Assembly: GCF_964204865.1 (NCBI RefSeq) | Contig: NC_135259.1 | Coordinates: 7,822,974 to 7,886,973, forward strand | Direction of reading: 5' to 3' | Length of the DNA stretch: 64,000 nt | Source of the DNA: Styela clava | Lineage: Eukaryota > Chordata > Ascidiacea > Stolidobranchia > Styelidae | Shown: one piece after another, positions 3,497 through 61,575 of the stretch | Numbering within the stretch: the stretch's first letter is position 1 | How the letters are laid out: each line of letters begins with the position of its first letter | The notes under the pieces: model-generated | What the model was told of the DNA's origin: nothing | Database searches by the model: none | The model's input: the letters and a program-made list of their open reading frames with translations, nothing else | Program-made: the position numbers and the translations under genes

Positions 3497-3987
3497 TCAT
3501 CCAGCAAAAGTTCTGCGTCTGCTATTTGGAAGCATCTGAAAACTTCCCCTTCGGCCTGTAAAAACAAAGACAGAGTGAATTGTGTAATACTGCTATGGTT
3601 AGTTGTATATGTCACATTGATAATGGCATTGTCAAACTTTCTTTCAATATCTTGATCGTTTTAAAAATAATAGAAAAGATGAATAAAAATTTATTTTCGT
3701 AAATTACTGAAAATAAATTATTCAAGAAATCGTTTCCAGTCGATAACAGGCTGATTCAAATAACATATGACTCATGGTTAGTAAACAAAACTTTCAGAAC
3801 GATTAGAGTATAATGTTATATGAAGTCTAATTCAATTACGTATAAATAGGTGTTCTGCGTAAGTAATATCGACAAATCGGCGAAAATAAATTTTTTATTT
3901 ATTCGCTTGTAACTTCCTACCTTCAATAGATACAATCCACAGTACCAGCACAATGAGAACGAAAATTTTCCGTGAGATGGGTCCCAT
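3497..3987 (-). CDS. Secreted Arg-rich peptide gene A1 (cationic-peptide family)
   Basis: Two coding exons. Exon 2 (4018-3921) follows the acceptor ttcatcag and has its ATG at 3987. It encodes a 22-residue signal peptide: basic start MGPISRK, hydrophobic core IFVLIVLVLWIV, then SIE. It ends at donor GAAG|GTAGGA in phase 1. Exon 3 starts at 3555 after tttttacag. The split codon gives Gly, followed by RRGSFQM and a tail containing SRRRTFAG, with TGA at 3497-3499. AATAAA (TTTATT on plus) lies 22 bp beyond, at 3470-3475. TATA box and non-coding exon 1 are at 4419-4480. The predicted mature peptide has about 18 residues and charge about +5. The architecture resembles short secreted host-defence peptides, but no named family is recognised. 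An alternative exon-3 frame (AEGEVFRC...) is also open here but does not match the splice phase. Confidence 0.7.
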
Positions 3988-4418
3988 TTCTTTGTCGCAA
4001 TTGCAAGGAACTTTCCAACTGATGAAGCAGACAAAAAAAAAATAATTCAAAACTTTGAAAAATTAAAATGATCATTAGAATATGAAAAGTGATAAAACAC
4101 GCTATCGGAAATATATGCACAAAATCTTGCAAAATGCAAAAATGTCTTTCAAATCGACATGTAGTGTCTATTATGCCCGAAGTATCTCTTTGACATAACA
4201 GCCCATCGGCATTTTTGTCATTTCAAAAACTTGATATTTCATCATTATATTACTGAAATAGGTAGTCTTACCATGTTTTAAGTTAATTGCTCATAATTGT
4301 TATCGTATTAATCACAGAGAAACTAAACCCTTACATATTTTGCATACAAAAATCGCTTACGCTATGCATCTTTGGTTTTCTTAGACATAGCAGATTAAGA
4401 ATAATCTTCAAAACTCAC

Positions 4419-4480
4419 CAATATAGAATATTATGAAGAAGTAATATAATATAAATCATCAGCAATCATCTTTTTATATA
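4419..4480 (-). promoter_or_regulatory. Promoter and non-coding exon 1 of gene A1
   Basis: On the minus strand TATATAA (4480-4474) is followed ~60 bp later by a donor-like GTGAGT at 4418. The short transcribed piece between them would be a 5'-UTR exon spliced to the acceptor at 4019. Confidence 0.65.
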
Positions 4481-4730
4481 GTTTTAATGCTCTATTTTTT
4501 ATGTTTAGATCGGGAAATGACCTCTTAAATAACCGCTTCCGCTGTGCACACATGCTATTAATTTACCCGCCTGTTCATGCGATTAAATATTCATTGAAAG
4601 AAACGGATGCAAACAATTTTGAATGCGGGCGTACAAAAGATTTATTTTCGTCGATTTCCAGAAAAGATCAAACATTAAATCAATTTCATACTTACTCGTG
4701 ATTTTAATCTGTTATTAACTTGCATCCAAT

Positions 4731-5201
4731 GTGGCTAATTCCTCTTACACTATATATCCCCGGGAAATACTTGGTTGGGATAGAAAATTTTTAACAGAAA
4801 ACCTTCTACAGATTCGCCGTTCACCTTCGAAAACAGACGCGCGATGTATCATTTTACCAAGTGGAAGTAAGTATATATACGTTGAGTTTAGCGCGACACT
4901 GCAGTTTAAAAAGTGTTGTTCAATTATTATGCGTTTTATAGTAATTTTTATATTACTTGTATTAGATTATCATTCCATTTTACGTCATGTCTTATGTATT
5001 ACATTAGACAGTCCTATTCCCTTCTTTATTGTTAATGTTGGACTTGCAAAAATAGCAAAGCTTATACAAAACTTATATTTTAGCTTTAAATACAATGACA
5101 TTTTATCAATATTTATCAAAATTTTTAATAGTACAAAGAATTCGAAGCATAATACAGTATTGAATATCATATACACAAATAACTGCTTCGCTCCATTCTA
5201 A
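4731..5201 (+). other. 156-codon open frame, probably not a gene
   Basis: This is one of the longest open frames in the window, but its first third runs through the conserved upstream flank of the peptide-gene promoter. The rest is low-complexity, AT-driven hydrophobic sequence. I see no domain or convincing splice or promoter context. It is duplicated at 18192-18662. Confidence 0.3.
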
Positions 5202-5301
5202 TCATTTCTCCTCTTTGCATAATATCAGAATATTATTAATGTCAAAATAACAAGAATATTAAAGAATAATACACATCACAATTTATATATATACTCTATG
5301 G

Positions 5302-5376
5302 CAGCGATTTTCTCATGATGAATCAAATTGTAGCATAGTCTATGCTACAATTTGATTCATCATGAGAAAATCGCTG
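5302..5376. repeat. Perfect 37-bp-arm hairpin, copy 1
   Basis: Arms 5302-5338 and 5340-5376 are exact reverse complements separated by one T (cagcgattttctcatgatga ... tcatcatgagaaaatcgctg). It could be a terminal hairpin of a foldback element or a hairpin RNA. A one-base loop is unlike a classic microRNA precursor. Confidence 0.95.
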
Positions 5377-5399
5377 ACATTTATACGTTTCTCCAAGTC

Positions 5400-8300
5400 T
5401 TCAGCATGCAGTTCTACAGATTTGTTCGAAATTGTTTGTTGAGAACCACGTGTAATGCTATTCGGTATTATACCCATAATAAAAACTGAATAAAAGTTGG
5501 TTGATTCAATATTTCTACTTTTTTGTGTGTACTGATATCGATTTCTTTTTCAAACTTCATTTCTCGTACACTCCATATACCAAACAGAAAACTAAGTGAC
5601 GTATATCACCTTTATTCTCTAAAACATCGACAAGGGAAAGGTTTAAATATGAATGCTGGGTTCGAATGACGTCAATTCATTAGTCAGCATTTAATATACT
5701 ATTCAATTATAACAAAAATCGATGATCAACAAAATAAGTTAAACGAGCTTCCTTCATTATCTTTATGCGTATTTTACATGCTGCGCGAGCCCGCGATCGC
5801 GTTAGTTAAGAGTTTTTTGATTCGACAAGACTGACCCACGATTATCTAATTGGATCGAAGTAAATTTGATTAAGGATATTTTTTTATTTCATTTTATTCA
5901 TGAATGAATTTATGTACAAATATTTTTCGCTTTGACCAAAATCCATTACATTTCTCTTCAATTCCTGGGTATTATTCTATTTCTATCGCTGGCCATATTG
6001 ACGCAAAATAAGTATGAGAGCGGGATGTTCAGTTTTATTGTACACTATGATGTCTAAAAAAAATTATTACTCAAATTGTTTTGTTGCAATTTTTATAATT
6101 TCAAACGAATCAAAAATAGTCTAATAAAACCTGCGTATTGGGTTTTCTAACAACCCCATTATCAGAACATACGCAACTTTTTCATTTTTCTCATGTCGAT
6201 AAAATATATCACCAAATCCAAAATTAAATTTTAATGAATTTGGAGCACTGACGATTTACATTAATCGAGTCATGGAATCAATAAAATGCGAATCGTCGAA
6301 ATGAATTTGGAATTTGGTAAGTTTCTAAAAATGAACCTTTATACTCTTGAATCCCATCATAGTCCCAATCTATCGATATATGAGACGCACTATACTAATT
6401 TATAGGTATATTTGAATATGACCAAAAACTTTATTTGTTCTACAATATTTTTTCTCATCACTTTTTTTATCATGAAGGATCAGCTTCAATAAATATAAGT
6501 AAGTAAAATTATTTATAAAACACGTAATACTATACCTTAAAAATATATGGTATATTTGTAAACGTTTATCATTAACTATCATGCACTAACTCAAGCTCAT
6601 GCTTGCCTACTCCGATAAGCTGTTACACAAAACTCTGTGTCCAGTTTTATAACTGAATCGGACATTTAATTGCTAAACATAAATGTCAATCAAAATCGTT
6701 GGGAGAAACGATCTAATACCCTGATCAGAAAATCTGAAAACCACAATCATGCATCGGAGAAACGATTTAATACCCATAAATCAGTAAGGATATGCATATT
6801 GGTATTGTATCGGATCGGATCGGGATCGGATGTGTATATCGTCCCACTCTCTTTGACAATTTGTAACATTAGTTGTAAACTAGATATTTATATAACACTT
6901 GAAAACACCGCGTTTTTCTATTTTATTCACAATACCCACTATATCTATATTAATACTCAGTAATGATAATTCAATACGTCACCTATACAAATTGAAAATG
7001 CCACAGACAGCGATATTGTGGTTGGGGATTTTAAATTCATGAAATACCATGCAGAGGTCTTTTTTGAAAATCTGTCAAAAATGGCATTGTCTTTTTAATC
7101 TCATTTGTAAAAATATTTGAATTTAAGCTTTGCAGGAGGATGTGATTTACATTTGAATTGACATCATCCAATTATTTGGCATTTGATTTTGTCCCTGCTA
7201 TATATTGTTAACGAAGATAGATTTCCACAATCACAGTCATTTGTTCGCTATTCACTAGTATTCAAATTCGTTTGTTTTGTGGTATGCTTTCAAAAACAAT
7301 CTGGTCCGAAGCAATCTATATTTTTCCTGAATGTGGGACATTTCTCATTTATAATGCCGCTACAGGAAGGTTTGTCAATTACCAAACGTAAAAGTAAATT
7401 CTCAATTTATCCTAAAAGACAAAATTTAAATTTTTCTATCATTTCATCCATATTCATATTAGTAATTACATGTGGCTGAATTATGAAGGGTGAATAACCT
7501 GAAATAGATCATAAGTAAAAACGAACAAAAAATGACTTCTAAAATATCACCTAAATTAGATGAGATAATAAAATGATTTGTTATTCCGTATCAGATCACA
7601 AAAATTCCCCCCTAAAATTATAAATGTGCTTTAAATTTTAACCACGAAAACTCTTACCACAAAACTTTTACGTCTACGCCATTTTCTTTTAATAACAAAC
7701 ATTTAAAACATAAAAACTACATATTGCATTATGTGGGATATATATTATAACGACCTTATATTATAAAGTTCACTGGGTGGCTTAATAAATATATCTCGCA
7801 GGAACGTGATTTTCAAGTGCAAACGCATAAACGAGTCTAAAATGCATTTAAAAACGCAAAATTTGAATTGAATTTGCATCGGTTACGCCCAAAACTATTG
7901 TTGAACGAATGATAAATCATAAAAATGAAATAAATATATCAACATTATATTCAACTATATGCCCCTATTCACATGACGCATCAAATAATAATTTTCTCAT
8001 TATACTAACGTCAGAAATAGAAACTTTGACGTATAAAATGACAGATAAAAATATCTAGAAGCTGTAAGTTCATATACTAAGTATCACCTTTCACTTTCAT
8101 CTGTGACATTTCATTACCCATTCACGTAAAACCGTAAATGATTTCGAATTTTATCATAGTATCTCACAGTCTGACAACTTTTATAATGAATTCGAAGATA
8201 AAACGTCGATCGATTGTGACAGAAATATATGAGATATCACTGTCCAATACTTGATAAAACATTTTCGTCATCAATTCCAAAGTATTAAATTTTAAAACGG

Positions 8301-10640
8301 CTGCCATCAACAGTACAAAAGATACATTTTGAGACGAAAAAGTCCTATCTCAAAGATAAACATCTTAGGCTGGCATCATGTTAATTTTGCATCCATTATT
8401 CAGTGTCAAGATTTTAGTAGTCGACTGCCCACAAAATGCTTTCGATTTGCTTCATCGGCCATATTATGGATAAGAAAAAATAAAATTTAGATTTTGCGAA
8501 GATAATTGAGTATCTTTTATATTTGTGTTATTTTATTTTATCTTAGTGCTATTTACATATGCATATGTATAAAAATTAAAACCTTGTACCTAATTTTTTC
8601 TTTTAAATTTAACATTTGGCCATCGTCTGCATGCTCAAAACTATTCCGTTAACATGCTATATGCTATTGTGAAAAAAACTTTCGGTATTTTTGAGAAACT
8701 TTTGACTGAGAATACAATTCTATAATGTAATATGACTAGTTCTTTTGCCTTTCGACGAAATTATAGTAACATCTCGCGAAAAAATATTTTCAAATATTCC
8801 CGAAGTACCGTAAATTACATTTTATTTTGCAACATTTTTAATAAGATACTATCTGAAAAAAGCGATGATAATCATATACAGGGAAATAAAAAGATTTCAC
8901 CGTTTCTAAGCAAAAAATATGTTTTTAGGCTACCTGTCCTAATACTCTGATTAAAAATAGTTTACCCCTTTACAGCGGATTTCACACTTTTTTTTCTAAA
9001 TCATTTTCCTCAACAAAGTTACTTGACGCATAAACTTCCAGATTTAATAAAACTCCTTAAATTTGAATACAGTTTATTTAACATATAAATAGCCAGGCAT
9101 AGTGTAAAGTACCATTTTTACAATCGCTTCGTTTGTTGTCGAACTATAACTCTTGTGGATTATCATCCTGCGCTGACCTAGATGACATAGACACAACAAT
9201 TTAACGTGTAACATAGGCACCTCAATTAGTTCAGAATAATAAACAAGATTTTGGCATCGTTAATTACCTTTTCATGACATGACGCTTTGTTTAGTCAGAA
9301 TCAGTGTTCCTGAATATACCAGCTGATGGTCTTGTTAGTCATCAAAATAATTTTACCAATTTCAGTCCAATTGAGGGTCACATTAAACCGAGTTTTTCAA
9401 AGACTGCCTCTGTCCATTTCATATTTGTTTCGTTTGACTTCTTCCCAAATTAATATAAACAAATGTGTAGTGACCTACTTTAGTTCCAAATGAGATGCTT
9501 TTTTAATTGTCAGTGCCCTATGACCTCAAATGCAATAATACATATTGTTTAAAACCATCAGACCAGAACAGTCGGAAACCTACATATAATTACAAACCAA
9601 GGTGATATTTCACGAATATGCAATGGGCTGATTAGACTTGAGTACTAACCATTTCTGTGTGTTCGCCTATCATGAACTTTGGCATACTATATATATGAAG
9701 GGAAGCAGTAAATAAAGTATACATTGAACAAACCTTTTCTCCCACTGTTTTATCGACTATTTCATGTTTTTAAACTAACGTATAACTTATGATGCATGTC
9801 GAATAACTATCATATCATAAACCAACATACCATGTAATCATGCATCAATACAAGGTTTATATACACACATATATATTCAAGATAGCAGTTTCATTCTTTC
9901 CTGAAACGTATTGGACGCTAGTTTTATTGTCAACCATATTCAGATTGTATCCCTCCCTAATCAAAAGAATTATTGAAAATAATGTCCCCATGCACGACAC
10001 TTAGATACTTGTTTTTGATTGCGTAATCCTTTAGTTAGAACTGAAATCTCAGGGGAACTTGACTGTGTTTCGATCTAATGATGCATGCACTGCCCGCAAT
10101 GGCACGTGTAGACGTAGTTACCGCCACAAGTATGTGACGTTGATGGCGTTTCTACCATTTAAACATAACAGTAACTCAGTGGTAGAAAGTGAATCGCCGA
10201 TGAAAGATTGCAAGAGGGATCAAACAATAAAATCCTAAATTCTAACTTAACTAACTCTTAAAAGTAAACAGAATATAAGATGAGGATATATATAAGTTAA
10301 TTAGTTCTTTTGTTTTAGACGTTGGTTCATAGACACGTTTGGAATGTATTAATTCATTGCACTGTGTTGTGGAGAAGTCATGGTTTGAACAAAATAACAG
10401 TGCTCCTTTGTGACATTTCCTCGCTGTATTAATTAACACATCAGCTGGGTCTTTTTTTTACGGATACTAAACTACAAAAACTTGAATAAATCAACACTCC
10501 AGCTGGCATATCGTTTTCTTTAACAATTCAATTGGGTGTACGTAGCCAGCACATTGGGATTGTTTTGTATACGACGTAATCTAGCTTTTACTCTCGTCTT
10601 CCGGTTCAAACAAGGCCTGACAAAGAGCCACTAATATCTA
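5400..10640. other. Long stretch without recognisable genes
   Basis: AT-rich sequence with only short open frames (none above ~98 codons), no domain that I recognise, and no repeat beyond simple AT tracts. The identical counterpart is 18861-23161. The sequence switches from identical to diverged at 9701. Confidence 0.6.
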
Positions 10641-10651
10641 TCAATATCTTA

Positions 10652-12052: not shown

Positions 12053-12618
12053 TCATCCAGCAAAAGTTATGCGTCTGCGATTTGAAATCATCTGAAAACT
12101 TCCCCTTCGGCCTGTAAAGACAATGCAGTATTCGAAATTTTTTAAGAACTGTTGAAACCACTCGAAATAGCTTTTTTCAATCAATAAATGCATATACATA
12201 GACTGGTACAAAGGCAGAGTAAATTGTGTAACACTGCTATAGTTAGCGGTATATGTCACATTAATATTGGCATTGTCATACTTTTTTTCAATATCATGAT
12301 CGTTTTGAAAGGAATAGAAAAGATGAATAAAATACATTTTTATTTTAGTTACTTCAATAGATTGTTCGAAAATTGTTTCCAGTTGATGATAGAAATATGA
12401 CTCTTTGTTTAGTAAACAAAAATTTTATTACGAATGGAGTATAATGTTATATGACGTCTAATTAAATGACGTATAGATAGGTGTTCTACATAAGTAACAT
12501 CGACAAAACAGCAGGAATAAATTTTCTATTTATTTGCTTATAATTTCTTACCTTCAATAGATACAATCCACAGTACCAGCACGATGAAAACGACAATTTT
12601 TCTTAAGAGAGGTCCCAT
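12053..12618 (-). CDS. Secreted Arg-rich peptide gene B1
   Basis: ATG at 12618 starts exon 2 (12649-12552). The signal peptide is MGPLLRKIVVFIVLVLW...SIE, with a better donor than type A (GAAG|GTAAGA). Exon 3 begins at 12111 after gtctttacag and encodes RRGSFQMISNRRR plus ITFAG, with TGA at 12053. In this copy the competing exon-3 frame (AEGEVFR...) is stopped by TGA eight codons in, while the Arg-rich frame is intact. This supports the splice-phase choice. An AATAAA is at 11960-11965. Promoter at 13079-13140. Confidence 0.7.
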
Positions 12619-13140: not shown

Positions 13141-13659
13141 GTTTTAATGCTCTATTTTTTATGTTTAGATCGGGAAATGACCTCTTAAATAACCGCTTCC
13201 GCTGTGCACACATGCTATTAATTTACCCGCCTGTTCATGCGATTAAATATTTATTGAAAGAAACGGATGCAAACAATTTTGAATGCGGGCGGACGAAAGA
13301 TTTATTTTCGTCAATTTCCAGAAAAGATCAAACATAAAATCAATGTCATACTTACTCGGGATTTTAATCTGTTATTAACTTGCATCCAATGTGGCTAATT
13401 CCTCCTACACTATATATCCCCGGGAAATACTTGATTAGGATAGAAAATTTTAAACAAAAAACCTTCAACAGATTCGCCGTTCACCTTCGAAAATTGAACA
13501 AATGGTTGTTTCTAATATAATTGGATTTATATATATATATACGTTTATATATACTTCACTACATTGCAGAATTGATTGGTGAGTTCTTGTATTCGAATTT
13601 TATTTTTTATTTTCATATAGGTAATAAATGAGGCAAAATAGCTCTCACTGGATTAAGTG

Positions 13660-14625
13660 CAGGGTGTTCATAAAGTCTCTTAACATTTAAGAAACAACAT
13701 ATTAAAAAGGTAAATGATGTGATATTGCAATGAGGGTTGTTCTATGTAAATCGATATTTAAAAAAAAATTGACACTAAAATCATTGTTTTAGATAAAACT
13801 TCCCAAATAAAATTTCTTATGTTTAATGATTGAAGTATATGAACGAATTTCTGAGGATGAAGCATTCCTCAAGCGAGTCTGTTTCAGTGATGAGACAACT
13901 CTCCATGTCTCAGGAAAGTTAAATAAACACAATTTATGAATTTGGGGATCGCAAAACCCCCATGCGAGTGAGAACTTCAGCGTGATAGTCCAAAGAGAAT
14001 GTTCGGTGTTGAATTGTGTGCAATCGAAAAATTAGGCCATTTTTTTCAACAAGGCATCAATTACTGCAGATGTTTACCTTAACCTTCTCACCGAATATGA
14101 ATGAATTTCAACCAACCATCATATCCCAGCAAGATGGCGCACCACCCCACTGGGGACTGCATGTTCGTGAGAACCTCAATGAAACTTTTCCCGACCGATT
14201 GATTGGAAGGGATAGGCCGATTCCATAGCCACCACATTAACCAGACATCACTCCCCTGGAATTATTTTATTGCGGTTATTTAAAGGATATTGTGTATCGA
14301 ACAAAAGTACCGGACATAACTAACCTAAAACAAAGAATTTCCAATGCCATTGCAACCATTGATGAGGCTATGCTACAACGAACATTGCAGGAAATTGAGT
14401 ACCATATAGTCTTACCATCTTCGTGCAACTAATGGTGCCCATATAGAAGTTTAATAAATAGAGTCATAATATTTTTTGAATAAACGTTCAAAACTGTATT
14501 AATTGTGTCAATGAAAACTATATGAAATACTCATTAACATAAAACAACCCGCATTGCGATATCTCATCATTTCTCTTCGTAATAGTTTTTTTTTAATTGT
14601 AAATGGACTTTAGAGTCATTCTGTA
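13660..14625 (+). mobile_element. Degenerate mariner element, copy 2
   Basis: Duplicate of the element at 199-1164 with the same terminal repeat, the same QQDGAPPHW fragment (14016-14228) and the same stops. It arrived by segmental duplication, not by a new insertion. Confidence 0.9.
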
Positions 14626-14663
14626 TTTTGTATTTTGTTATTTTAGTTTGGACAGGGACGCAG

Positions 14664-15060
14664 GTGCGTTGTCCCTTGATGTGATAAAATTGCAACTGAA
14701 ATCAATGGGTGACGAAAAATAACGGAAAACATCGATATCTTCGAATCGAACATCCAGGCGTTTCCAGGTTCTATAAAAGATATTAGTTTATATCGATAAT
14801 TTTCCATGACCATCATTTTAAATAAGATGTCAGAAATTGATTGAGGAATACGAACTGATAAATCGAGGTCTTTTCAATAATAATTTTTCATAATTTTTAC
14901 GTATGTTTCTTTTTCTGTCAAATTAATTTTTAGTGAATAAACCTTTCACTTTTTACAATAACATAAATCTCCTTCTATTTCTAAATATAATTTCTATTCA
15001 GCTTTCTTGTATTCCCTCAAGAACAGTGAACTGAAAATAGTTGTCAATGTGAATATTTAG
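14664..15060 (+). pseudogene. Family-2 exon relics in spacer A2
   Basis: Same broken exon-b and exon-c homologues as at 1203-1599, carried along by the tandem duplication. Confidence 0.35.
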
Positions 15061-15923
15061 TTTTACTTTCGTACCCTCATAATACTTATGATATTTGAAC
15101 AAATAATTAAATTAAGGGCAATGTCTTTCGACAACATCGTTTTGACCTGGGTCTTATTTTATTAATGGTTTGGAGTCAGGCTGAGATGTAGTTATGTTTT
15201 ATTTGAAGTATTATAAAGATGAAATTCAATTACTGACGTTTATAACTAATCTAAATAATGTACAAATTAGTCTACTAAAACATGTTGCTCAAAAATATGC
15301 ACACAAATATAAACTGTGAATCACAGAAAACAAGGCTTGATTATCATATAGTACTAACTAATAAATTACTTGAAACAAATCCGATAAATTATGTTAAAAA
15401 CGAATAATAAATGATATTACGTTCTTTTTAACACACTAGCATATACAATAATTATTCGAGTTCAATAGGCGTTTTAGAAATTTTTTTTTCTGATTTTATG
15501 CTGATCTATATATAATATATATCAAGTATTTATTTTCTAGAACCGGAGAAGTTTGTTACCCGGCCTTTGTAAATATCTTCCCGGTGGATTCCAATCAAAT
15601 GTGCGTGAGCTGGCATCTGAGCAGCGGAAGTACTGTTCAATTTACAAAAAATGATTGACGTTGCTAACCGAACGTATCACCCACTTTTCAGGAGTCGGTT
15701 GGCCGACTGTCGTGGTATGTCGGGTATGATGATGTTTGTAACCTTGCTGATGGTTATGAATGATGCCAATCATTTGGTGACATTATGTTGACGAAAACTT
15801 TAATATTGTATTTTACCATTCATTGCCGTTGTGACTTGAAGTTGCTCATGTTCCCGGGATTATGTATCAAGGTTTAAATTGGTGGCGCTTAAAATTATTT
15901 CCTTAATTGGACCAAAATACAAT

Positions 15924-16441
15924 ACGAGAATATCGGTCGGAGACCGAAGACTTATGGATGGAAACTGCGGTTTTGATTCATGACTCTATAGTGACACCAC
16001 GACATAATTCATCCAAAATCAATAGGCTTCTGGTCTGAGATATGATGAATGCACATGCAAAATTTGGAGCAGATGCAACCTCGCTTCCGTGAGATATCGC
16101 GTGCATCTAACAGACAGACAGACAAACAGACAGACAAATACCTATGAACATACTTACCGATCTTAAGATTGATAAGTAATTAGAAATAAGAAATAACGAG
16201 AGTATCGGTCGGAGACCGAAGACTTATCGATCGAAACTGCGGTTTTGATTCATGACTCTATAGTGACACCGCGTGTCCCATTACTAATTAAATATTAACT
16301 CGCTAATTATCCACGTGCAAAATTTGGAGCAGATCCAACCACGCCTTCGTGAGATATCGCGTGCATCTAACAGACAGACAAACATACAGAAAGACAAACA
16401 CACAAATACCTATCAACATACTTAGCGATCTAGAGATTGCT
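15924..16441. repeat. Two GACA-tailed interspersed repeats (duplicate)
   Basis: Copy-2 counterpart of 2463-2980 with the same head segment and acag/acaa tails. Confidence 0.7.
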
Positions 16442-16957
16442 AGAGATAGCTAGAGATAACTAGAGATTGCAAGGGCTCAGAGAGTACGTAGTCTAACGTA
16501 GTACGGGGATTTGGTTACCGGTTGTAGAGAATTTCATATTTCCAAATATTCGAAATTTTTTTCACCTTGCGTGATTGCGTGATTGATTTAAATAACACCG
16601 GAAAAATATTTAAACTGTTCACAGTTCTAATATGTTACATCGCTTATGGTTAATTGTACAGGTGTTGAAGACGCATGCATGGATGACACATCCTGATGAC
16701 AGCTCGTCCTGACGTTGCCCCTGACGACGCCTATGGACGAATTCTTTGGTCTATTGTATTCCTTAATTTGAAGACTATTTTGTAATCTAGTAGCTATATA
16801 TCCCTATAATATATATATATTTAAACCAGACCGAACTCCAAACATCGATCGGCTGATGCCCATTTTTATTTTAATATTGTACAAAATAACTGTGTTAATT
16901 TTATTGTCATTTGTTGATCAAATGCTCTATTTTATTGAAATTGTCTTCTCGATAAGT

Positions 16958-17448
16958 TCATCCAGCAAAAGTTCTGCGTCTGCTATTTGGAAGCATCTGA
17001 AAACTTCCCCTTCGGCCTGTAAAAACAAAGACAGAGTGAATTGTGTAATACTGCTATGGTTAGTTGTATATGTCACATTGATAATGGCATTGTCAAACTT
17101 TCTTTCAATATCTTGATCGTTTTAAAAATAATAGAAAAGATGAATAAAAATTTATTTTCGTAAATTACTGAAAATAAATTATTCAAGAAATCGTTTCCAG
17201 TCGATAACAGGCTGATTCAAATAACATATGACTCATGGTTAGTAAACAAAACTTTCAGAACGATTAGAGTATAATGTTATATGAAGTCTAATTCAATTAC
17301 GTATAAATAGGTGTTCTGCGTAAGTAATATCGACAAATCGGCGAAAATAAATTTTTTATTTATTCGCTTGTAACTTCCTACCTTCAATAGATACAATCCA
17401 CAGTACCAGCACAATGAGAACGAAAATTTTCCGTGAGATGGGTCCCAT
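16958..17448 (-). CDS. Secreted Arg-rich peptide gene A2
   Basis: Duplicate of gene A1 at +13,461 with no difference that I could see. Exon-2 CDS is 17382-17448 (signal peptide MGPISRK...SIE) and exon-3 coding is 16958-17016 (RRGSFQM...SRRRTFAG). AATAAA is at 16931-16936 and the acceptor of exon 2 at 17480. Identical promoter and UTR sequence means A1 and A2 would be indistinguishable in expression data. Confidence 0.7.
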
Positions 17449-17879
17449 TTCTTTGTCGCAATTGCAAGGAACTTTCCAACTGATGAAGCAGACAAAAAAA
17501 AAATAATTCAAAACTTTGAAAAATTAAAATGATCATTAGAATATGAAAAGTGATAAAACACGCTATCGGAAATATATGCACAAAATCTTGCAAAATGCAA
17601 AAATGTCTTTCAAATCGACATGTAGTGTCTATTATGCCCGAAGTATCTCTTTGACATAACAGCCCATCGGCATTTTTGTCATTTCAAAAACTTGATATTT
17701 CATCATTATATTACTGAAATAGGTAGTCTTACCATGTTTTAAGTTAATTGCTCATAATTGTTATCGTATTAATCACAGAGAAACTAAACCCTTACATATT
17801 TTGCATACAAAAATCGCTTACGCTATGCATCTTTGGTTTTCTTAGACATAGCAGATTAAGAATAATCTTCAAAACTCAC

Positions 17880-17941
17880 CAATATAGAATATTATGAAGA
17901 AGTAATATAATATAAATCATCAGCAATCATCTTTTTATATA
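17880..17941 (-). promoter_or_regulatory. Promoter and non-coding exon 1 of gene A2
   Basis: Duplicate of the A1 promoter: TATATAA at 17941-17935 and donor GTGAGT just after 17880. Confidence 0.65.
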
Positions 17942-18762
17942 GTTTTAATGCTCTATTTTTTATGTTTAGATCGGGAAATGACCTCTTAAATAACCGCTTC
18001 CGCTGTGCACACATGCTATTAATTTACCCGCCTGTTCATGCGATTAAATATTCATTGAAAGAAACGGATGCAAACAATTTTGAATGCGGGCGTACAAAAG
18101 ATTTATTTTCGTCGATTTCCAGAAAAGATCAAACATTAAATCAATTTCATACTTACTCGTGATTTTAATCTGTTATTAACTTGCATCCAATGTGGCTAAT
18201 TCCTCTTACACTATATATCCCCGGGAAATACTTGGTTGGGATAGAAAATTTTTAACAGAAAACCTTCTACAGATTCGCCGTTCACCTTCGAAAACAGACG
18301 CGCGATGTATCATTTTACCAAGTGGAAGTAAGTATATATACGTTGAGTTTAGCGCGACACTGCAGTTTAAAAAGTGTTGTTCAATTATTATGCGTTTTAT
18401 AGTAATTTTTATATTACTTGTATTAGATTATCATTCCATTTTACGTCATGTCTTATGTATTACATTAGACAGTCCTATTCCCTTCTTTATTGTTAATGTT
18501 GGACTTGCAAAAATAGCAAAGCTTATACAAAACTTATATTTTAGCTTTAAATACAATGACATTTTATCAATATTTATCAAAATTTTTAATAGTACAAAGA
18601 ATTCGAAGCATAATACAGTATTGAATATCATATACACAAATAACTGCTTCGCTCCATTCTAATCATTTCTCCTCTTTGCATAATATCAGAATATTATTAA
18701 TGTCAAAATAACAAGAATATTAAAGAATAATACACATCACAATTTATATATATACTCTATGG

Positions 18763-18837
18763 CAGCGATTTTCTCATGATGAATCAAATTGTAGCATAGT
18801 CTATGCTACAATTTGATTCATCATGAGAAAATCGCTG
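18763..18837. repeat. Perfect 37-bp-arm hairpin, copy 2
   Basis: Identical to 5302-5376: two exactly complementary 37-nt arms around a single T. Confidence 0.95.
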
Positions 18838-25545: not shown

Positions 25546-26101
25546 TCATCCAGCAAAAGTTCTGCGTCTGCGATTTGAAATCATCTGAAAACTTCCCCTT
25601 CGGCCTGTAAAGACAATGCAGTATTCGAAATTTTTGAAGAACTGTTGAAACCACTCGAAATAGCTTTTTTCAATCAATAAATGCATATACATAGACTGGT
25701 ACAAAATGAATGCTGTGATATTGTAATAGTTAGCTATATATGTCAAAATAATATTGGCATTGTCATACTTTCTTTCAATATCATGATCGTTTTAAAAGGA
25801 ATAGAAAAGATGAATAAAATACATTTTTATTTCAGTTACTGAAATAGATTGTTCGAAAATTGTTTCCAGTTGATGATAGAAATATGACTCTTTGTTTAGT
25901 AAACAAAAATTTTATTACGAGTGGAGTATAGTGTTATATGAAGTCGAATTGAATGACGTATAGGTGTTCTACATAAGTAACACCGACAAAGCAGCAGGAA
26001 TAATTTTTCTATTTATTTGCTTATAATTTCTTACCATCAATAGATACAATCCACAGTACCAGCACGATAAAAACGACAATTTTTCTTAAGAGAGGTCCCA
26101 T
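25546..26101 (-). CDS. Secreted Arg-rich peptide gene B2
   Basis: ATG at 26101. Exon 2 is 26132-26035, with signal peptide MGPLLRKIVVF...SID. The last codon is GAT, not the GAA of its relatives, but the donor G|GTAAGA is kept. Exon 3 begins at 25604 and encodes RRGSFQM, then NRRRRTFAG, with TGA at 25546. It has one more Arg than B1 (AGA for ATA). The alternative frame is stopped by the same TGA as in B1. AATAAA at 25519-25524. Promoter at 26571-26632. Confidence 0.7.
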
Positions 26102-32752: not shown

Positions 32753-33337
32753 TCATCCAGCAAAATATCTGCGTCTGCTATTTGGAAGCATCTGAAAACT
32801 TCCCCTTCGGCCTGTAAAGACAATGTAGTATTTTAAATTATATGAAGAGCTATTGAAACCACTCGTACGTAATAGTTGACTGCTTTATAATCAATGCATA
32901 TACATACCCTGGTACAAAGGCAGCTTGAATTGTGTAATACTGCTATAGCTAGAGGTATATGTCACATTAATATTGGCATTGTTAAACTTTCTTTCAATAT
33001 CTTGATCGTTTTAAAAATAATCGAAAAGATGAATAAAAATTTATTTTCGTAAATTACTGAAAATAAATTATTCAAAAAATCGTTTCCAGTCGATAACAGA
33101 CTGATTCAAATAACATATGACTCATGGTTAGTAAACAAGACTTTCAGAACGATTAGAGTATAATGTTATATGAAGTCTAATTCAATTACGTATAAATAGG
33201 TGTTCTGCGTAAGTAATATCGACAAATCGGCAAAAATAATTTTTTTATTCATTCGCTTGTAACTTCCTACCTTCAATAGATACAATCCACAGTACCAGCA
33301 TAATGAGAACGACAATTTTCCGTAAGATGGGTCCCAT
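32753..33337 (-). CDS. Secreted Arg-rich peptide gene E1
   Basis: ATG at 33337. Exon 2 is 33368-33271, with signal peptide MGPILRKIVVLIMLVLW...SIE and donor GAAG|GTAGGA. Exon 3 starts at 32811 and encodes RRGSFQM, then SRRRYFAG (Tyr where A1 has Thr), with TGA at 32753 and AATAAA at 32726-32731. It is a hybrid of the A type (PNS in exon 3, type-A intron flank) and the B-type location in the right-hand array. Its promoter (33770-33831) is followed to the right by a second, orphan copy of the same promoter. Confidence 0.7.
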
Positions 33338-34438: not shown

Positions 34439-35030
34439 AATCATGCAAAATGCAAAAATGTCTTTCAAATCTCGATGTGGTGTCTATTATGCTCGAAGTA
34501 TCTCCTTGACATAACAGCCCATCGGCTTTTTTGTAATTTCAAAAACTTGATATTTCATCATTATATTACTGAAATAGGTAGTCTTACCATGTTTTAAGTT
34601 AATTGCTCATATTTGTTATCGTATTAATTACAGAGAAACTAAATCCTTATGTATATTTTGCATACAAAAATCGTCTACGCTATGCATCTTTGGTTTTCTT
34701 AGACATAGCAGATTAAGAATAATCTTCAAAACTCACCTTTATAGAATACTATGAAGAAGTAATATAATATATATCAGCAGCAATCATTTTTTTATATAGT
34801 TTTATTGCTCTATTTTTTATGTTTAAATCGGGAAATGACCTCTTAAATAACCGCTTTCGCTGTGCACACATGCTATTATTTCACCTGCATGTTCATGCGA
34901 TTAAATATTTATTGAAAGAAGCGGATGCAAACAATTTTGAATGCGGGCGTACAAAAGATTTATTTTTGTCAATTTCCAGAAAAGATCAAACATTAAATCA
35001 ATGTCATACTTACTCGGGAGTTTAATCTGT
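34439..35030 (-). repeat. Duplicated, gene-less promoter segment
   Basis: This ~590-bp block repeats 33,47x-34,06x (intron 1, exon 1, TATA at 34798-34792 and upstream flank) but has no exon 2 or 3 to its left. Instead it abuts the family-2 spacer at atcaataa|aatcatgcaaaatg. It is an orphan promoter left by unequal recombination between array units. Confidence 0.8.
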
Positions 35031-35183
35031 TATAAACTTGCATCCAATGTGGCTAATTCAGATTACACATTATTTCACGGGAAAATATTTGGTTAGTAGT
35101 TAATAGAAAAATTTTAATATAACCCTGTGAATGTTTTGCCGATCACCTTCGAAAATTAATCAAATGATTGTTTCTAATTTATA

Positions 35184-35262
35184 CACAGGGTCTACAAAAA
35201 ATGTCACCATTTTATACATTCCGAATGTACAAAACGGTAACAATTTTTTGGTCCGCCCTGTA
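35184..35262. mobile_element. Short palindromic MITE-like element
   Basis: Second copy of the 34150 element: cagggtctac at 35186 and gtccgccctg at 35251-35260, with the same palindromic core. Confidence 0.65.
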
Positions 35263-35342
35263 TATATATGTCTTTATATATTTGTTACTACATTGCAAAA
35301 TTTATTGGTGTTCTCATATTTTAATTTTATTTTTCCTGTCAT

Positions 35343-35850
35343 AGGCGTAATAAATGATGCAATTTTCACCGAAGCTCGCACTGGATTGAGTATTTTTCAT
35401 TTTGTTGTTTTAGTTAGGTTAGGGGCGCGGATGCGTCCTGATGTAATGAATATGCTACTGAAATCAATAAGAGATAAACAAAACAGAAATCGTTTAGTTG
35501 AATACAGAAATCGTCCATGATTATCATCCAGACGTTTCCATTTTCTATAAAAGATATTAAATAAATCACTCATGCATTGATAATTTCCAATGATCATCAC
35601 TTCAAACAAGATGTAAGAATATAAGTGAGCAATACCAACTGAGTAATTGTGGTCTTTTCAATCATAATATTTTAATTGCGTGTGTGTTTTTTTGCTCTGC
35701 CAAATTGATTTATAGCGAATAAACAAACCGTTTATTTTTTTACAATAACATGAATCTCCATCTGTTTTCATAAGTATTTTTGTTTTCAGCTTTCATGGAT
35801 CCACACAAGAACAATGAACTGGAAATAGTTGTCAATGTGTATATTTGGTT
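35343..35850 (+). pseudogene. Family-2 exons in spacer X1
   Basis: After tcctgtcatag an exon-a homologue reads GVINDAIFTEA, and exon-c at 35790 follows tgttttcag with FMDPHKNNELEIVVNVYI. Exon b has lost the CTGTTTC bases seen in the intact copies, so the spliced frame would stop early. In exon c the usual terminal TAA is TGG. Confidence 0.3.
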
Positions 35851-37463: not shown

Positions 37464-38034
37464 TCAAAAGCGACGTCTGTATCTCGAAAGGATTTGAAAC
37501 CTTTTCCTTCGTCCTGTGGAGACAAAACAAAAAAATATTCTGTAAAGTTTCGTCTGCTCAAATTCATATAATAATAATTATTTTTGTCCGACTCTGTTTA
37601 GACGAAATAATGCAGTATTCTAAATTGTATGAAGGGCTGTTGTAGCCCTTTAAAAAAGCCGACTGTTTTTCAATCATGCATATAGGCATAGCTTTGTACA
37701 TAGCTTTGTACATAGAAACAGTAAAAAGTCTATTGCTGTAATAAATAGCTACGTATCACATTGAAATTGTCGTTGTCAAACTTTCTTTCAATATCTTGAT
37801 CGTTTTAATGTTAACAAAAAATGTGAATGAAAATGTATTTTTTCAAATTACCAAAAATTCATTATTCGATCTATGATTAGTAAACTCATTTTTAGAACGA
37901 TTAGAGAATTATGTTATATGAGGTCTAGTTCAATCAATTTTCTATTCATTTGCCCATAATTTCCTACCTTCAATAGATACGATCCACAGTGCCAGCACGA
38001 CGAAAACGACAATTTTTCTTAATATGGGTCCCAT
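37464..38034 (-). CDS. Secreted Arg-rich peptide gene C1
   Basis: ATG at 38034. Exon 2 is 38065-37968, with signal peptide MGPILRKIVVFVVLALW...SIE. Exon 3 begins at 37513 after gtctccacag. The split codon is G|GA (Gly), then RRKRFQILSRYRRRF and TGA at 37464, with AATAAA at 37416-37421. Type C lacks the FAG end of types A/B and is more basic (about +8 over 15 residues). The alternative exon-3 frame (DEGKGFKSFRDTD...DELIK) stays open much further. The exon-1 donor reads ATGAGT instead of GTGAGT, so normal splicing of the leader may be impaired in this copy. Confidence 0.65.
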
Positions 38035-40814: not shown

Positions 40815-41382
40815 TCATCCAGCAAAAGTTCTGTGTCTGCGATTTGAAAGCATCTGAAAACTTCCCCTTCGGCCTGTAAAGACAAAATTTTTGAAGAACT
40901 GTTGAAACCACTCGAAATAGCTTATTTTTTCAATCAATCAATGCATATACATAGACGGGTACAAAATAATTGTTGTAAAACTGTAATAGTTAGCTGTATA
41001 TGTCACAATAATAATGACATTGTCAAACTTTCTGTCAATATATTGATCGTTTTAAAAGTACTAGAAAAGATGAATAAAAATATATTTTCGTAAATTACTG
41101 AAAATAGATCATTCAAAAAATCGTTTCCAGTCGATAACAAGCTGATTCAAATAACATAATCATGACTCATGGTTAGTAAACAAAACTTTCAGAACGATTA
41201 GAGTATAATGTTATATGAAATCTAATTCAATGACGTATAGATAGGTGTTCTGCATAAGTAACATCGACAAATCAGCAGAAATAAATTTTCTATTTATTTG
41301 CTTATAATTTCTTACCTTCAATAGATACAATCCACAGTACCAGCACGATGAAAACGACAATTTTTCTTAAGAGAGGTCCCAT
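40815..41382 (-). CDS. Secreted Arg-rich peptide gene B3
   Basis: ATG at 41382. Exon-2 CDS is 41316-41382, with signal peptide MGPLLRKIVVFIVLVLW...SIE and donor G|GTAAGA. Exon 3 starts at 40873 and encodes RRGSFQM, then NRRHRTFAG, with TGA at 40815. One Arg of the cluster is His (CAC for CGC). The usual exon-2 acceptor (catcag) is deleted. A nearby cttcttag could substitute. Promoter at 41818-41869. Confidence 0.65.
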
Positions 41383-44628: not shown

Positions 44629-45280
44629 TCAAAAGCGACGTCTGCCGTATCTCGAAAGGATCTGAAACCTTTTCCTTCGTCCTGTGGAGACAAAACAAAG
44701 AAATATTGCGTAAAGTTTCGTCTTCTCAAATTCATTTAATAATAATTATTTTGTCCAATTCTGTTTAGACGAAATAATGCAGTATTCTAAATTGTATGAA
44801 GGGCTGTTGTATTCACTCAAATTAGCCGATTATTTTTTTAATCATGCATATAAGCTACATAGCTTTGTTCAAAGGCACACGAAATAGTGTAATAATGTAA
44901 TAAATAGCTACGTATCACATTAAAATTGTCATTGTCAAACTTTCTTTCAATATCTTAATCCTTTTAATGTGAATAAAAATATATTTTTTAAATTACTAAA
45001 ATTAAATTATTCGAAAAATTGTTTCCAGTCATTAATAGGTTGATTCAAATAGAATATGATCTATGATTAGTAAACTAATTTTTTTTTAGAACGATTAGAG
45101 ATTAATGTTATATGAGGTCTAATTCAATCACGTATATGTTGGTGGTCTGTACAAGTATTATGTACAAAGCACTTAAATATGTTTTCTATTCATTTGCCCA
45201 TAATTCCCTATACCTTCAATAGATACGATCCACAGTGCCAGCACGACGAAAACGACAATTTTTCTTAGTATGGGTCCCAT
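44629..45280 (-). CDS. Secreted Arg-rich peptide gene C2
   Basis: ATG at 45280. Exon 2 is 45311-45214, with signal peptide MGPILRKIVVFVVLALW...SIE and donor G|GTATAG (weaker than in the other copies). Exon 3 starts at 44681: RRKRFQILSRY, then GRRRF, with TGA at 44629 and AATAAA at 44578-44583. A 3-bp in-frame insertion adds Gly before the RRR cluster compared with C1, and the peptide frame is maintained. Promoter at 45625-45686. Confidence 0.65.
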
Positions 45281-47828: not shown

Positions 47829-48276
47829 TCATCCAGCAAAAGTTCTGCGTCTGCGATTTGAAAGCATCTGAAAACTTCCCCTTCGGCCTGTAAAGACAAA
47901 ATTTTTGAAGAACTGTTGAAACCACTCGAAATAGCTTATTTTTTCAATCAATCAATGCATATACATAGACGGGTACAAAATAATTGTTGTAAAACTGTAA
48001 TAGTTAGCTGTATATGTCACAATAATAATGACATTGTCAAACTTTCTGTCAATATCTTGATCGTTTTAAAAGTACTAGAAAAGATGAATAAAATTTATTT
48101 TCGTAAATTACTGAAAATAGATCATTCAAAAAATCGTTTCCAGTCGATAACAAGCTGATTCAAATAACATAATCATGACTATTCTATTTATTTGCTTATA
48201 ATTTCTTACCTTCAATAGATACAATCCACAGTACCAGCACGATGAAAACGACAATTTTTCTTAAGAGAGGTCCCAT
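47829..48276 (-). CDS. Secreted Arg-rich peptide gene B4
   Basis: ATG at 48276. Exon 2 is 48307-48210, with MGPLLRKIVVFIVLVLW...SIE and donor G|GTAAGA. Exon 3 starts at 47887: RRGSFQM, then NRRRRTFAG, with TGA at 47829 and AATAAA at 47802-47807. The intron between them is about 120 bp shorter than in B3, because the segment around the tttagtaaac motif is missing. All splice signals are intact. Promoter at 48717-48778. Confidence 0.7.
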
Positions 48277-52053: not shown

Positions 52054-52770
52054 TCAGCGACGTCTGTATTTCGAAAGGATCTGAAACCTTTTCCTTCGTC
52101 CTGTGGAGACAAAACAGTAAAATAATAATAATTTCATTATTTCTTAACCTATGCAGCGTATTCTCATGAAAAATATTCTGTAAAGTTTCGTCTTCTCAAG
52201 TTCATATAATAATAATAATTATTTTTGTCCTACTCTGTTTAGACGAAATAATGCAGTATTCTCAAGTGTATAAAGGGCTGTCGTAACTCGTAACCACTCA
52301 AAATAGCCGACTATTTTCCAATCATGCGTATAGGCTACATAGCTTTGTTCAAAGGCACAGTAAATAGTGTATTACTGTAATAAATAGCTACGTATCACAT
52401 TAAAATTGTCATTGTCAAACTTTCTTTCAATATCTTGATCGTTTTAATGTTAACAAAAAATGTGAATGAAAGTCTATTTTTTCAAATTACTAAAAATTAA
52501 TTATTCGAAAAATTGATTCCACTCATTAATAGGTTGATTCAAATAGAATATGGCCTATGATAAGTAAACTAATTTTTTTAGAACGATTAGAGATTAATGT
52601 TATATGAGGTCTAATTCAATCACGTATATGTCGGTGGCCTGTACAAGTATTATGTACAAAGCACTTAAATATGTTTTCTATTCATTTGCCCATAATTTCC
52701 TACCTTCAATAGATACGATCCACAGTGCCAGCACGACGAAAACGACAATTTTTCTTAATATGGGCCCCAT
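52054..52770 (-). CDS. Secreted Arg-rich peptide gene C3
   Basis: ATG at 52770. Exon 2 is 52801-52704, with MGPILRKIVVFVVLALW...SIE and donor G|GTAGGA. Exon 3 starts at 52100: RRKRFQILSKYRRR then TGA at 52054, one residue shorter than C1. AATAAA is at 52001-52006. A local rearrangement just after the stop (tgacgctttgaac) disrupts the alternative exon-3 frame (DELIK lost) but leaves the Arg-rich frame whole. Promoter at 53177-53238. Confidence 0.65.
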
Positions 52771-55713: not shown

Positions 55714-55736
55714 TATATATATATATATATATATAT
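55714..55736. repeat. (AT)n microsatellite
   Basis: An uninterrupted at-dinucleotide tract. Confidence 0.9.
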
Positions 55737-58135: not shown

Positions 58136-59841
58136 CTAATAGATGTCATCGGCTATAAATTGACGTTTTACTGATTTTCTAGAATGAGGGGCCTCGGCAT
58201 CATCGCGCTTGATAGACCAACAGTAGTCTGCAAGCATGGTGGAATCCCAACGACCTTGATAGCGAACTTCCATGTCGCTGATATCTTGATGAAGCGCTCT
58301 CCTTGCTCATCGCTCACATCACCTAGATTTTCTGGAAAACGGGCAAGATGGCTGTGTAAAAAATGTAATTGATGCTCATATTTGCACCCAGTTGACGGAG
58401 ACTTGTAAGTAGTGTTTCAACAAGCTCTTTGTAGTTGGGCGCCTTCGTTTTTCCCAAAAAGAATTTTACTACATTTGTAAACGCCGTCCAAGCTCTCAAT
58501 TCTGTTGGATTCATAAAATTACAGAAAGTTACATCATTCATCAACTTTCGAATCTGGGGTCCATCAAAAATTCCAGCTCTTAATTTCCCTGTGGTTAGAC
58601 CTGGAAATTTCTGGCAAATATATTTGAAACAGTCGCCATCTTTCTCAAGAGCCTTCACAAACTGTTTCATGATGCCAAGCTTTATGTGAAGAGGAGGAAA
58701 CACAATTTTTGAACGGTCGACCAAAGGAGGAGCCAAAACATTGAGAAAGCCAGGAATCAACTCACTGCGCATAGGCCAATCTTTTTTTATCCAATGATCT
58801 GTTCTTGCCCTGCTGTCCCACAAACACAAGAAGCAAGGAAATTTCGTGTAGCCACCTTGTAGCCCAAGGAGAAATCCAACCATTTTCAAATCGACACATA
58901 TGATCCATTGGTACTGTCTGTATGAAATTATTTCCAGTGCAAATTTGATTTCATCATATTTTTCTTTGAGGGTTGTTGAATAACCTAGAGGAACTGATCC
59001 AAATAAGTTTCCATTGTGAAGAAGAACACATTTTAAACATTTTTTGGAACTGTCTATAAAAAGGCGCCAATCTTGAGGATCATAAGCTGGACACCAAGCT
59101 GCCGCAGCAGGCCGGCAACGTTGTTACAATGTACTATGTCTTTTTCCTGAGTGAAATATGACAAGAATTCAATATGGCGTTTTCTATAGAATGTTATGAG
59201 AGTTCCCGGCTGAAGTAGATTTTTTTATTGAGTCTTGAAGCTAGAAGTTCAGAAGATTCTTTGGAAAGGTTGGGATCTCTAGTCAGATCATTAAGTTCTT
59301 TTTGAGAAAAAAGCTGTGGCAGTGAAGAAGAAAGAAACAAGATATCTGAAACAGTGCCCTCACTACTTTCAGTGGAGGTTTGATATTCTTCAGAGCAAGG
59401 CAATTCCAATTCGGGCAAGCCTTCAAACACTGGAACAGGAATTTCATTGCAGTGTGGAATTGGCCTAATTGCAGACTCGAGGTTTGGATAAACCAACGAT
59501 TTCCAGTTCTTCCTATTGATTCCCTTAGTGTTTACTGCACAGAAGTAGCAGTCATCAAAATGATTTTTCGGTTCCCGCCAAACCATTGGAATACCAAAGC
59601 GGAGTGACTTTCTATCCTTTTTTGTCCACTGTCGAAGATGTTCAACACATTGCTTGCATACAATATGGGGTGCCCATACCTTATCTTGATCACCCAGCAT
59701 TACTTTGAAGTAGGCAAGATAAGCACACCTCACAAATTTACTGATCCCTTTCCTGTTGGATTGCAATGTATATTCTCCGCAAATATAGCAAAATACATTT
59801 GGATTGTTTGAACAATGTCGCCTAGAAGAAGATGTAGCCAT
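58136..59841 (-). pseudogene. Repetitive uncharacterised zinc-cluster protein gene, frameshifted
   Basis: The likely start is ATG 59841 (MATSSS...). The N-terminal block has paired cysteines at residues 18/21 (FCYIC), 62/65 (HIVCKQC) and 98/101 (CYFC), suggesting zinc binding. Motifs then continue across frame changes: LLQPGTLITFYRKRHIEF, HCNNVAGLLRQLGV, YDPQDWRLFIDSS, then FPCFLCLWDSRARTDHW and PPLHIKLGIMKQFVKAL in the 188-codon open part (58323-58889, extending upstream to about 59084), and finally DVSDEQGERF and YQGRWDSTMLADYCW, with TAG at 58136. At least four frameshifts are visible: T7 run 59220-59226, ~59086, ~58366 and ~58295. From memory, this is a high-copy hypothetical family in arthropod and cnidarian genomes. 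Its function is unknown and it is probably transposon-linked. Confidence 0.75.
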
Positions 59842-60054
59842 ACTTAATTTTTGCTCTACAAATCTGCAACTCAACCAAAACAATGCAGCCTATTTATTTT
59901 TTGTCTGACTTCTATATATATAAAATTTGACTTCTATAAGGCGTGTGATGTCATAATCGTTTGGCATACATCACAATAAAAACCTACACTTTTAATTATA
60001 ACCCTAAAATCCATATAGAAATACTACTAATCTCAGAAAAAGCCGCGTTGGCCC

Positions 60055-60260
60055 TATAGTTAGTTTTACCATGGATAATAAGGTACACCTCACACACAAT
60101 TGATTGTATGTCGATTTCAGTGATGGTGTGGCTTCTAAAGTCAACCAATCAGAATGATAGGCACACAATTTTTTTGCGATATACAATGTCATAAAAGCGT
60201 TTTCTTTCCCACTTTCACCAAAGCGGAAATATGGTGTTTTCTGTTTTATTTTCGGTATTT
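60055..60260 (+). pseudogene. Decayed X-type spacer segment (Cys-ORF region)
   Basis: The segment tgtcgatttcagtgatggtgtggcttctaaagtcaacc matches the candidate ORF region of 36.7/43.7/50.7 kb. The frame is broken after KSTNQN and the Cys codons are lost. A related broken copy is at about 55380-55700. Confidence 0.5.
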
Positions 60261-60672
60261 TACATTGCATCTTTTCAATCGAAACAATTTGGGTTGCGGA
60301 TTCACTTCTTTATTTATCTTTATAGGACTCCTTTGCCGATGATTATAAATAATAATTCGTTATTCATAGTTTCGTCCAACAATGTAATTATTATCGTCCT
60401 AAATATGCTCAGGGAAATTTTGGCTTAGAGGAATATAAACATCGTTACATCGACATAAAGATTTTACGGTATGAATAACACGTCACACCGACAGCAATCA
60501 GCGATTTTGACCAAATGCAATCGCACACGCTATCAACAACTTTAAGATCTTTTGAAAATTTTAAAAAACGCGGGGAGGTTTAAGTCCTTTGTTCATAATC
60601 TTCCATTCTGAATCTGATTCCAAAAAAGACTAATTCTTTTCTGGAAAACTTTTATAAAGAGTTTTACTGTAT

Positions 60673-60941
60673 GAAGCCAGGAGTCTTTTTTCTGTAACAA
60701 ATTTGTTTATTTTTACTTCAATATTTCATATACTAATCTACATGTATATTGTTCGTCTTATTTCTATTAAACTTGTATCAATGTTAGACTCTTATCACAG
60801 GTGTCGCTGCTCGATAACCAACTTTGGTTTTTCGCGTCACCTTTCACCAGGAAATGTCATTTTCAACTTTTTTTCAGTATCTGTTCACCATGAGTGCATT
60901 TTCATTTTGGTGAAAAATAAACTATTGACTGACTGACTGTA
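60673..60941 (+). mobile_element. Short retroelement 3'-end insertion with (TGAC)n tail
   Basis: Compared with the type-C flank (tactgta-ttcc...ttcgaag), about 270 bp are inserted here, ending in aataaactattgactgactgactg and bounded by short actgta repeats. This looks like a LINE or SINE tail. The family is not recognised. Confidence 0.55.
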
Positions 60942-61143
60942 ATCCCCATTTCGAAGACTATTCTGTAATCTGGGAGCAATATGGTCCTAGAAACAGTATT
61001 TGAATCAATCGAATTCTAAATATTGATCGGCTGTCCCTCATCGCATTTTCATATCAAAAATCGTACAAGTAACTTTGCAAATTTTATTGTCTCACGTTGA
61101 AATCTGTATTTATTAAAAAATAGTATTCTTGATGAGTTCATCC

Positions 61144-61575
61144 TTAGCGACGTCTGCGGCTTGAAAGCATTTGAAATCTTTTCCTTCGGCCTGTAGAGAA
61201 AAACAAAAAAATTTTTTTAATATTTTCATTGGTTCAAAACTTATTTATCGTATTCCCATGGAAAATATTCTGTAATCTTTTGTCTGCCCAAAGTCATGCA
61301 TTGGAGAATTCAAAAGTGTATAAAGGTCATTATTTCCAGTCAATATTAGGCTGATTAAAATGAAATCTGATTCATGGTTAGTAAACTAAATTTTCAGAAC
61401 GATTGGAATATAATGTTATATGAAATCTAATTCAAACACGTATAGATTGGTGTCTTGCACAAGTAATATCTACAAAGCACCAGAAATAAATAATATATAA
61501 TTTCCTACCTTCAATAGATGCAATCCACAGTACCAGCACGACGAAAACGACAATTTTTCTTAAGATAGGTCCCAT
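61144..61575 (-). CDS. Secreted Arg-rich peptide gene D
   Basis: ATG at 61575. Exon 2 is 61605-61509, with signal peptide MGPILRKIVVFVVLVLW...ASIE and donor GAAG|GTAGGA. Exon 3 starts at 61190 after ttctctacag: RRKRFQMLSSRRRR and TAA at 61144. It has the shortest and most Arg-dense tail (about +8 over 14 residues). AATAAA at 61109-61114. It is the most diverged member, mixing a type-B-like FQML core with a type-C RRKR start. The alternative frame (AEGKDFKCFQAAD...DELIK) is also open. Promoter at 61979-62040. Confidence 0.7.

Follow-up and report, generated by a model that had tools for sequence, protein, structure and literature searches.

A clustered family of tiny genes for predicted secreted, arginine-rich peptides in Styela clava

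A stretch of the Styela clava genome in which a very small gene appears to recur at intervals, always with a conserved signal peptide and a short basic product, raises the question of whether these units are real genes and, if so, what kind of peptide they deliver. The window analysed here is the whole stretch of 64,000 nucleotides (C13:7822974-7886973), for which a sequence-only reading had proposed a family of at least eleven genes. The family is best explained as coding for short secreted, arginine-flanked and mostly cysteine-free peptides, and the view that these are host-defence effectors seems to us the most likely one, held with modest confidence from sequence features.

Gene anatomy and extent of the family

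All eleven copies were recovered where that reading had placed them, all on the minus strand, from the first copy (exon 2 ending at 3921, exon 3 starting at 3555 and the stop ending at 3497) to the last ATG at 61575 (Table 1). The TATA box that they were said to share, TATATAAA, lies 406-531 bases upstream of the ATG in the eleven copies of the window and is present in 14/14 copies of the larger array to which they belong (array A, see below). Upstream of it, a TTCC(C/T)GAT stretch common to the same 14 copies might be an NF-kappa-B-like half site, a lead only, because paralogous copies share such stretches by descent. We infer the transcription start and the untranslated exon 1 from conserved signals only: the first-exon donor GTGAG is present in 10 of the 11 copies, and copy 6 (ATG 38034) has GATGAG at this position, with no GT, so that the untranslated exon claimed earlier keeps its donor in all copies but one. 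With gaps set aside, seven pairs within array A show much the same degree of conservation in intron 1 as in the putative exon 1, and what speaks separately for this exon is thus its donor.

The coding part of the signal exon measures 67 bases (22 codons plus one base) and is followed by a GT donor and a phase-1 intron in every window copy, in agreement with the 22-residue signal and intron phase proposed earlier; its proposed SIE ending occurs in ten copies, copy 4 (26101) ending in SID. Intron 2 is 318-603 bases long with a CAG acceptor in 11/11, and the last exon of each copy encodes an arginine-rich peptide and then an early stop. The run RRR near the C-terminus, also claimed for the family, is found in ten copies, the one at 41382 having RRHR, while the computed net charge of the predicted products, +5 to +8, equals the value first estimated. 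AATAAA follows the stop after 21-52 bases in the eleven window copies and after 21-106 bases in all 19 copies of the family.

Table 1. Positions of family features in the window (window coordinates).
Feature	Position	Strand	Remarks
TATA box, copy 1	4473..4480	-	sequence match to TATATAAA
Putative untranslated exon 1, copy 1	4419..4450	-	start inferred ~30 bases after TATA; donor GT 4418-4417
Signal exon, coding part, copy 1	3921..3987	-	MGPISRKIFVLIVLVLWIVSIE
Last exon, coding part, copy 1	3497..3555	-	(G)RRGSFQMLPNSRRRTFAG stop
Signal exon, copy 2	12552..12618	-	
Last exon, copy 2	12053..12111	-	RRGSFQMISNRRRITFAG
Signal exon, copy 3	17382..17448	-	identical to copy 1
Last exon, copy 3	16958..17016	-	identical to copy 1
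Signal exon, copy 4	26035..26101	-	ends SID
Last exon, copy 4	25546..25604	-	RRGSFQMISNRRRRTFAG
Signal exon, copy 5	33271..33337	-	
Last exon, copy 5	32753..32811	-	RRGSFQMLPNSRRRYFAG
Signal exon, copy 6	37968..38034	-	exon-1 donor region GATGAG
Last exon, copy 6	37464..37513	-	RRKRFQILSRYRRRF
Signal exon, copy 7	41316..41382	-	
Last exon, copy 7	40815..40873	-	RRGSFQMLSNRRHRTFAG
Signal exon, copy 8	45214..45280	-	
Last exon, copy 8	44629..44681	-	RRKRFQILSRYGRRRF
Signal exon, copy 9	48210..48276	-	
Last exon, copy 9	47829..47887	-	RRGSFQMLSNRRRRTFAG
Signal exon, copy 10	52704..52770	-	
Last exon, copy 10	52054..52100	-	RRKRFQILSKYRRR
Signal exon, copy 11	61509..61575	-	
Last exon, copy 11	61144..61190	-	RRKRFQMLSSRRRR
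TATA box of further array copy	63806..63813	+	coding exons past window end (ATG would be 64273)

The array is larger than the window, past which it extends on both sides, so the earlier count of at least eleven was right for this DNA and low for the array. Two signal-peptide queries against the genome (376.6 Mb in 379 contigs) found the same 19 places, all on contig C13, with no other match at E<=10; these 19 copies are a lower bound, as search counts are minimum figures. Fourteen of them form array A, with signal exons between C13 7822053 and 7891254 and the last two copies on the plus strand. The copy just beyond the window (ATG 64273) has a TGA in its signal exon and looks like a pseudogene; reading frames are intact in 18/19 copies. 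At the DNA level, a signal-exon query matched at least 14 places in the genome and a last-exon query at least 10, all of these in array A. Part of the array is exactly repeated in tandem (window positions 1-9700 against 13462-23161, offset 13,461), continuing to the left of the window and carrying peptide genes. Counting runs over 200 bases only, the exactly repeated DNA comes to 12,133 bases in two runs with two copies inside, and reflects either duplication in the very recent past or a fault in the assembly; copies 1 and 3 (ATG 3987 and 17448) have the same sequence in the compared exons because they lie within it.

The remaining five copies form cluster B (three copies, C13 ~10.30-10.31 Mb) and cluster C (two copies, ~13.47-13.48 Mb). 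Their products, GRRSRSWFPHLRRRG, GGRNRSRFPSLRRRG (twice), GRRRPWYRTFCRRM and GRQSLSWSPYFRRRR, have diverged in sequence, and the layout of two coding exons with an arginine-rich product is retained in both clusters. The TATA box TATATAAA was absent from the 700 bases upstream of all five copies. Clusters B and C lie for the most part in opposite orientation, their aligned segments being 79-98% identical, and could mark inversion breakpoints. In these regions (C13 ~10.295-10.317 and 13.466-13.485 Mb, ~3.2 Mb apart) the peptide genes are interleaved with open reading frames that look alike by eye and resemble methyltransferases, one of which was scanned and matched Pfam Methyltransf_11.

Evidence for coding

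Judged by its substitution pattern, the signal exon is evolving as coding sequence, under purifying selection. Across all clusters (14 distinct sequences of 19, the stop-bearing copy included) its pN/pS is 0.27 in the proposed frame, against values of 0.88 and 1.26 when the other two are read; within array A the values are 0.31 in frame against 0.61 and 1.40, within B/C the in-frame ratio is 0.45, and between A and B/C it is 0.24. Fisher p values range from 0.003 to 0.024 in four of four A-versus-B pairs, which share sequences and are not independent, and are 0.07 and 1 for two pairs within A. When gaps are counted in seven within-A pairs, the most conserved segment is the signal exon in five and the 40 bases before the ATG in two. 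When five A copies are compared as DNA with the five B/C copies, little can be aligned apart from the signal exon with its close flanks (and two other repeated stretches at other positions), suggesting that the short cationic last exon was kept while much else changed.

The last exon has to be judged mainly by composition. Both strands of 243.9 kb contain 11,337 YAG sites, 2,070 of them followed by an open phase-1 reading frame of 13-20 residues, and among these short frames 21 have at least five Arg and no Asp or Glu: 19 are the family copies and two are found among the other 2,051. The threshold was chosen after the family was known and paralogues are not independent, although the B and C products count as separate cases because they are different enough from those of array A. 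The arginine-rich last exon is thus beyond chance, and this argument outweighs the one from pN/pS, which is proof neither way. In the latter comparison (A3 and A4, as duplicates, A13, with a stop in the signal, and B17 were omitted), the K-type last exons (first nine codons, four distinct of five) give 0.07. The six distinct G-type sequences vary at 4/3/0 sites of codon positions 1/2/3 over 17 codons, with zero synonymous changes and an undefined ratio in the proposed frame and 0.46 in a shifted one; as third codon positions do not vary at all, no synonymous constraint is demonstrated in this group. For the B-type (three distinct of four) the coding frame has a ratio of 1.53 and the other two frames have 0.59 and 0.49.

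Among G-type and B-type sequences, constraint therefore seems stronger in shifted frames than in the proposed frame. An alternative frame for the last exon was nevertheless rejected, because it contains stops in 3/14 copies of array A and does not join in frame with the signal exon. Seven variable sites in 17 codons are too few for a claim of positive selection on the mature exon. Between array A and cluster B, homology of the last exons is suggested by position, phase and composition, the sequences themselves giving no unambiguous alignment.

Predicted peptides, possible roles and known relatives

The predicted products have 13-18 residues. Arginines cluster at either end, and the short hydrophobic or aromatic middle between them varies among copies (FQML, FQIL, SWFPHL, SRFPSL, PWYRTF). 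The 18 intact signals combine a positive n-region with a hydrophobic core (mean hydropathy 2.6-3.7), as is typical of signal peptides, and after the SIEG junction each of the 19 products is net positive (+5 to +8) with no Asp or Glu. A C-terminal Gly is present in 12/19, and Cys occurs as one residue in one product, none having two. The earlier reading as a gene family with a signal peptide and a cationic product finds support in the gene anatomy, in the two additional clusters and in the purifying selection that acts on the signal exon.

These features suggest a gene with a TATA promoter, a small untranslated exon, a signal exon, a phase-1 intron, a mature-peptide exon and a nearby poly(A) signal, which would be transcribed and spliced from exon 2 to exon 3. 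The product would enter the secretory pathway and, once the signal is cut near SIEG, a mature peptide of 13-18 residues would be released, its arginine clusters flanking the hydrophobic or aromatic middle. Where the C-terminal Gly is present, C-terminal amidation would be possible, RRGSFQMLSNRRRRTFA(-NH2) being an example of the product type expected under the proposed cleavage and amidation. As a host-defence effector, the peptide would most likely bind microbes through their negatively charged surface or their nucleic acid, and the tandem copies would increase its dose and its sequence diversity. The amphipathic moment computed for the peptides is not strong, which leaves an amphipathic-helix explanation without support; for this reason surface or nucleic-acid binding, rather than helix-pore formation, is our guess.

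Conserved signals, variable cationic products and tandem copies are usual in insect immune peptides, although they are equally typical of secreted peptides of exocrine glands (venom, saliva, accessory or seminal gland), made in quantity and aimed at another animal or at gametes. Such a glandular origin would be rather unlikely here, since many hymenopteran venom peptide precursors carry an acidic propeptide, which is absent from these genes, and the Pfam scan of four precursors gave nothing over the cut-off. A family of chemokine-like, neuropeptide-like or hormone-like ligands appears less probable again: the products are short, the C-terminal Gly of 12/19 could be amidated, arginine pairs are possible cleavage sites and there is a sub-threshold Pfam hint to GPR15L (E 0.13), likely due to chance, but the middle, where the core of a ligand would lie, varies among copies, and hormones are not usually encoded by so many near-duplicates.

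Points against the host-defence explanation include the lack of a strong amphipathic moment, the pN/pS pattern of the G-type and B-type last exons, the donor loss in copy 6, the TGA in one signal exon and the absence of TATATAAA in clusters B and C. The donor loss and the TGA, together with some 12.1 kb of exactly repeated DNA, would also fit an array, mostly decayed or non-coding, that spread as a passenger of segmental duplication, a view we consider very improbable given the 18/19 intact frames, the purifying selection on the signal exon and an arginine-rich exon far from chance.

The sequence-only reading recognised no named antimicrobial peptide family, and the searches agree: a Pfam scan of four precursors had no match over the cut-off, a PDB search with one precursor (chains of at least 20 residues) had no match, and 12 peptide strings of the family had none in the full-text literature searched. 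Sub-threshold Pfam hits to GPR15L and CcmD (E 0.026 for the latter) were taken as chance. Literature searches likewise returned no matching family among the matches listed, nor in the passages considered of PMC9312091, PMC3308954 and PMC2853521. The novelty of the family is provisional, since the comparison comprises Pfam, PDB, literature strings and one animal genome.

Apidaecin and abaecin, proline/arginine-rich antimicrobial peptides of Hymenoptera, are linear and cationic. The Styela clava peptides are also cationic and linear, but they are not proline-rich, with 0 or 1 Pro in each of the 19, and four precursors lack a Pfam match over the cut-off. A search of the genome for the abaecin family gave no match, the search controls likewise giving none. 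According to the passages considered of PMC2853521, nasonin-1 and -2 of Nasonia have a phase-1 intron after the signal peptide and nasonin-1 has three disulphide bridges; the present genes share with them this intron and the lack of a propeptide, and differ from nasonins and defensins in having no cysteine framework. TeRu4 of the ant Temnothorax rugatulus, a lysine-rich 30-mer from a 234-residue precursor, is also cationic and was mined by rAMPage from an insect transcriptome; it was rejected as a relative for want of any likeness, by eye, to the sequence printed in the part of PMC9312091 considered.

By analogy, the closest architecture documented here is that of the Drosophila Bomanins as described in passages of PMC4411088: short secreted peptides with a CXXC motif and C-terminal amidation, required in Toll-mediated defence, encoded by ten genes at 55C and two elsewhere, six of the twelve having 16-17 residues. 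Like these, the Styela clava family consists of tiny, here predicted, secreted peptides encoded in a main array with smaller clusters, and 12/19 products end in Gly; unlike Bomanins, which were compared by description, they are arginine-rich and lack CXXC and the 16-residue Bom motif. Because the CXXC motif is absent, the family is not a Bomanin, although it may act in a similar place. More tentatively, and against the odds in our estimate, it could be an undescribed class of fast-turning-over, arginine-bookended mini-peptides (RR, hydrophobic middle, RRR), predicted to have 13-18 residues, to be almost always Cys-free and to lack a propeptide, acting in one lineage as a principal effector of humoral or glandular defence, in a Bomanin-like place.

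Annotation readily overlooks genes whose roughly 40 codons are divided between two coding exons, so that whole families of immune or secretory peptides can stay unseen. If active, this family would offer a compact natural set of arginine-rich peptides of several sequence types for structure-activity work, as well as a test of the independent origin of Bomanin-like clusters.

Neighbouring sequence

A search of the 64-kb window for tRNA genes and Rfam families gave no match. A search for COX1 gave none either, its controls being recovered in 8 of 14 cases. At window positions 32040-32203 there is a 78-bp tandem repeat (2.1 copies, 94% match), and on the plus strand, within dispersed repeats between the peptide genes, repeated ORF-like stretches at 34141-34509 and 35131-35520 are probably mobile-element remnants, their Pfam hits being sub-threshold only. 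Two minus-strand open frames (58323-59123, 266 aa, and 59194-59889, 231 aa), with no Pfam match over the cut-off, resemble by eye a transposon-derived zinc-binding protein. About 40 kb to the left of the array (L009 7607-8968), an open reading frame matches FLYWCH and MULE transposase.
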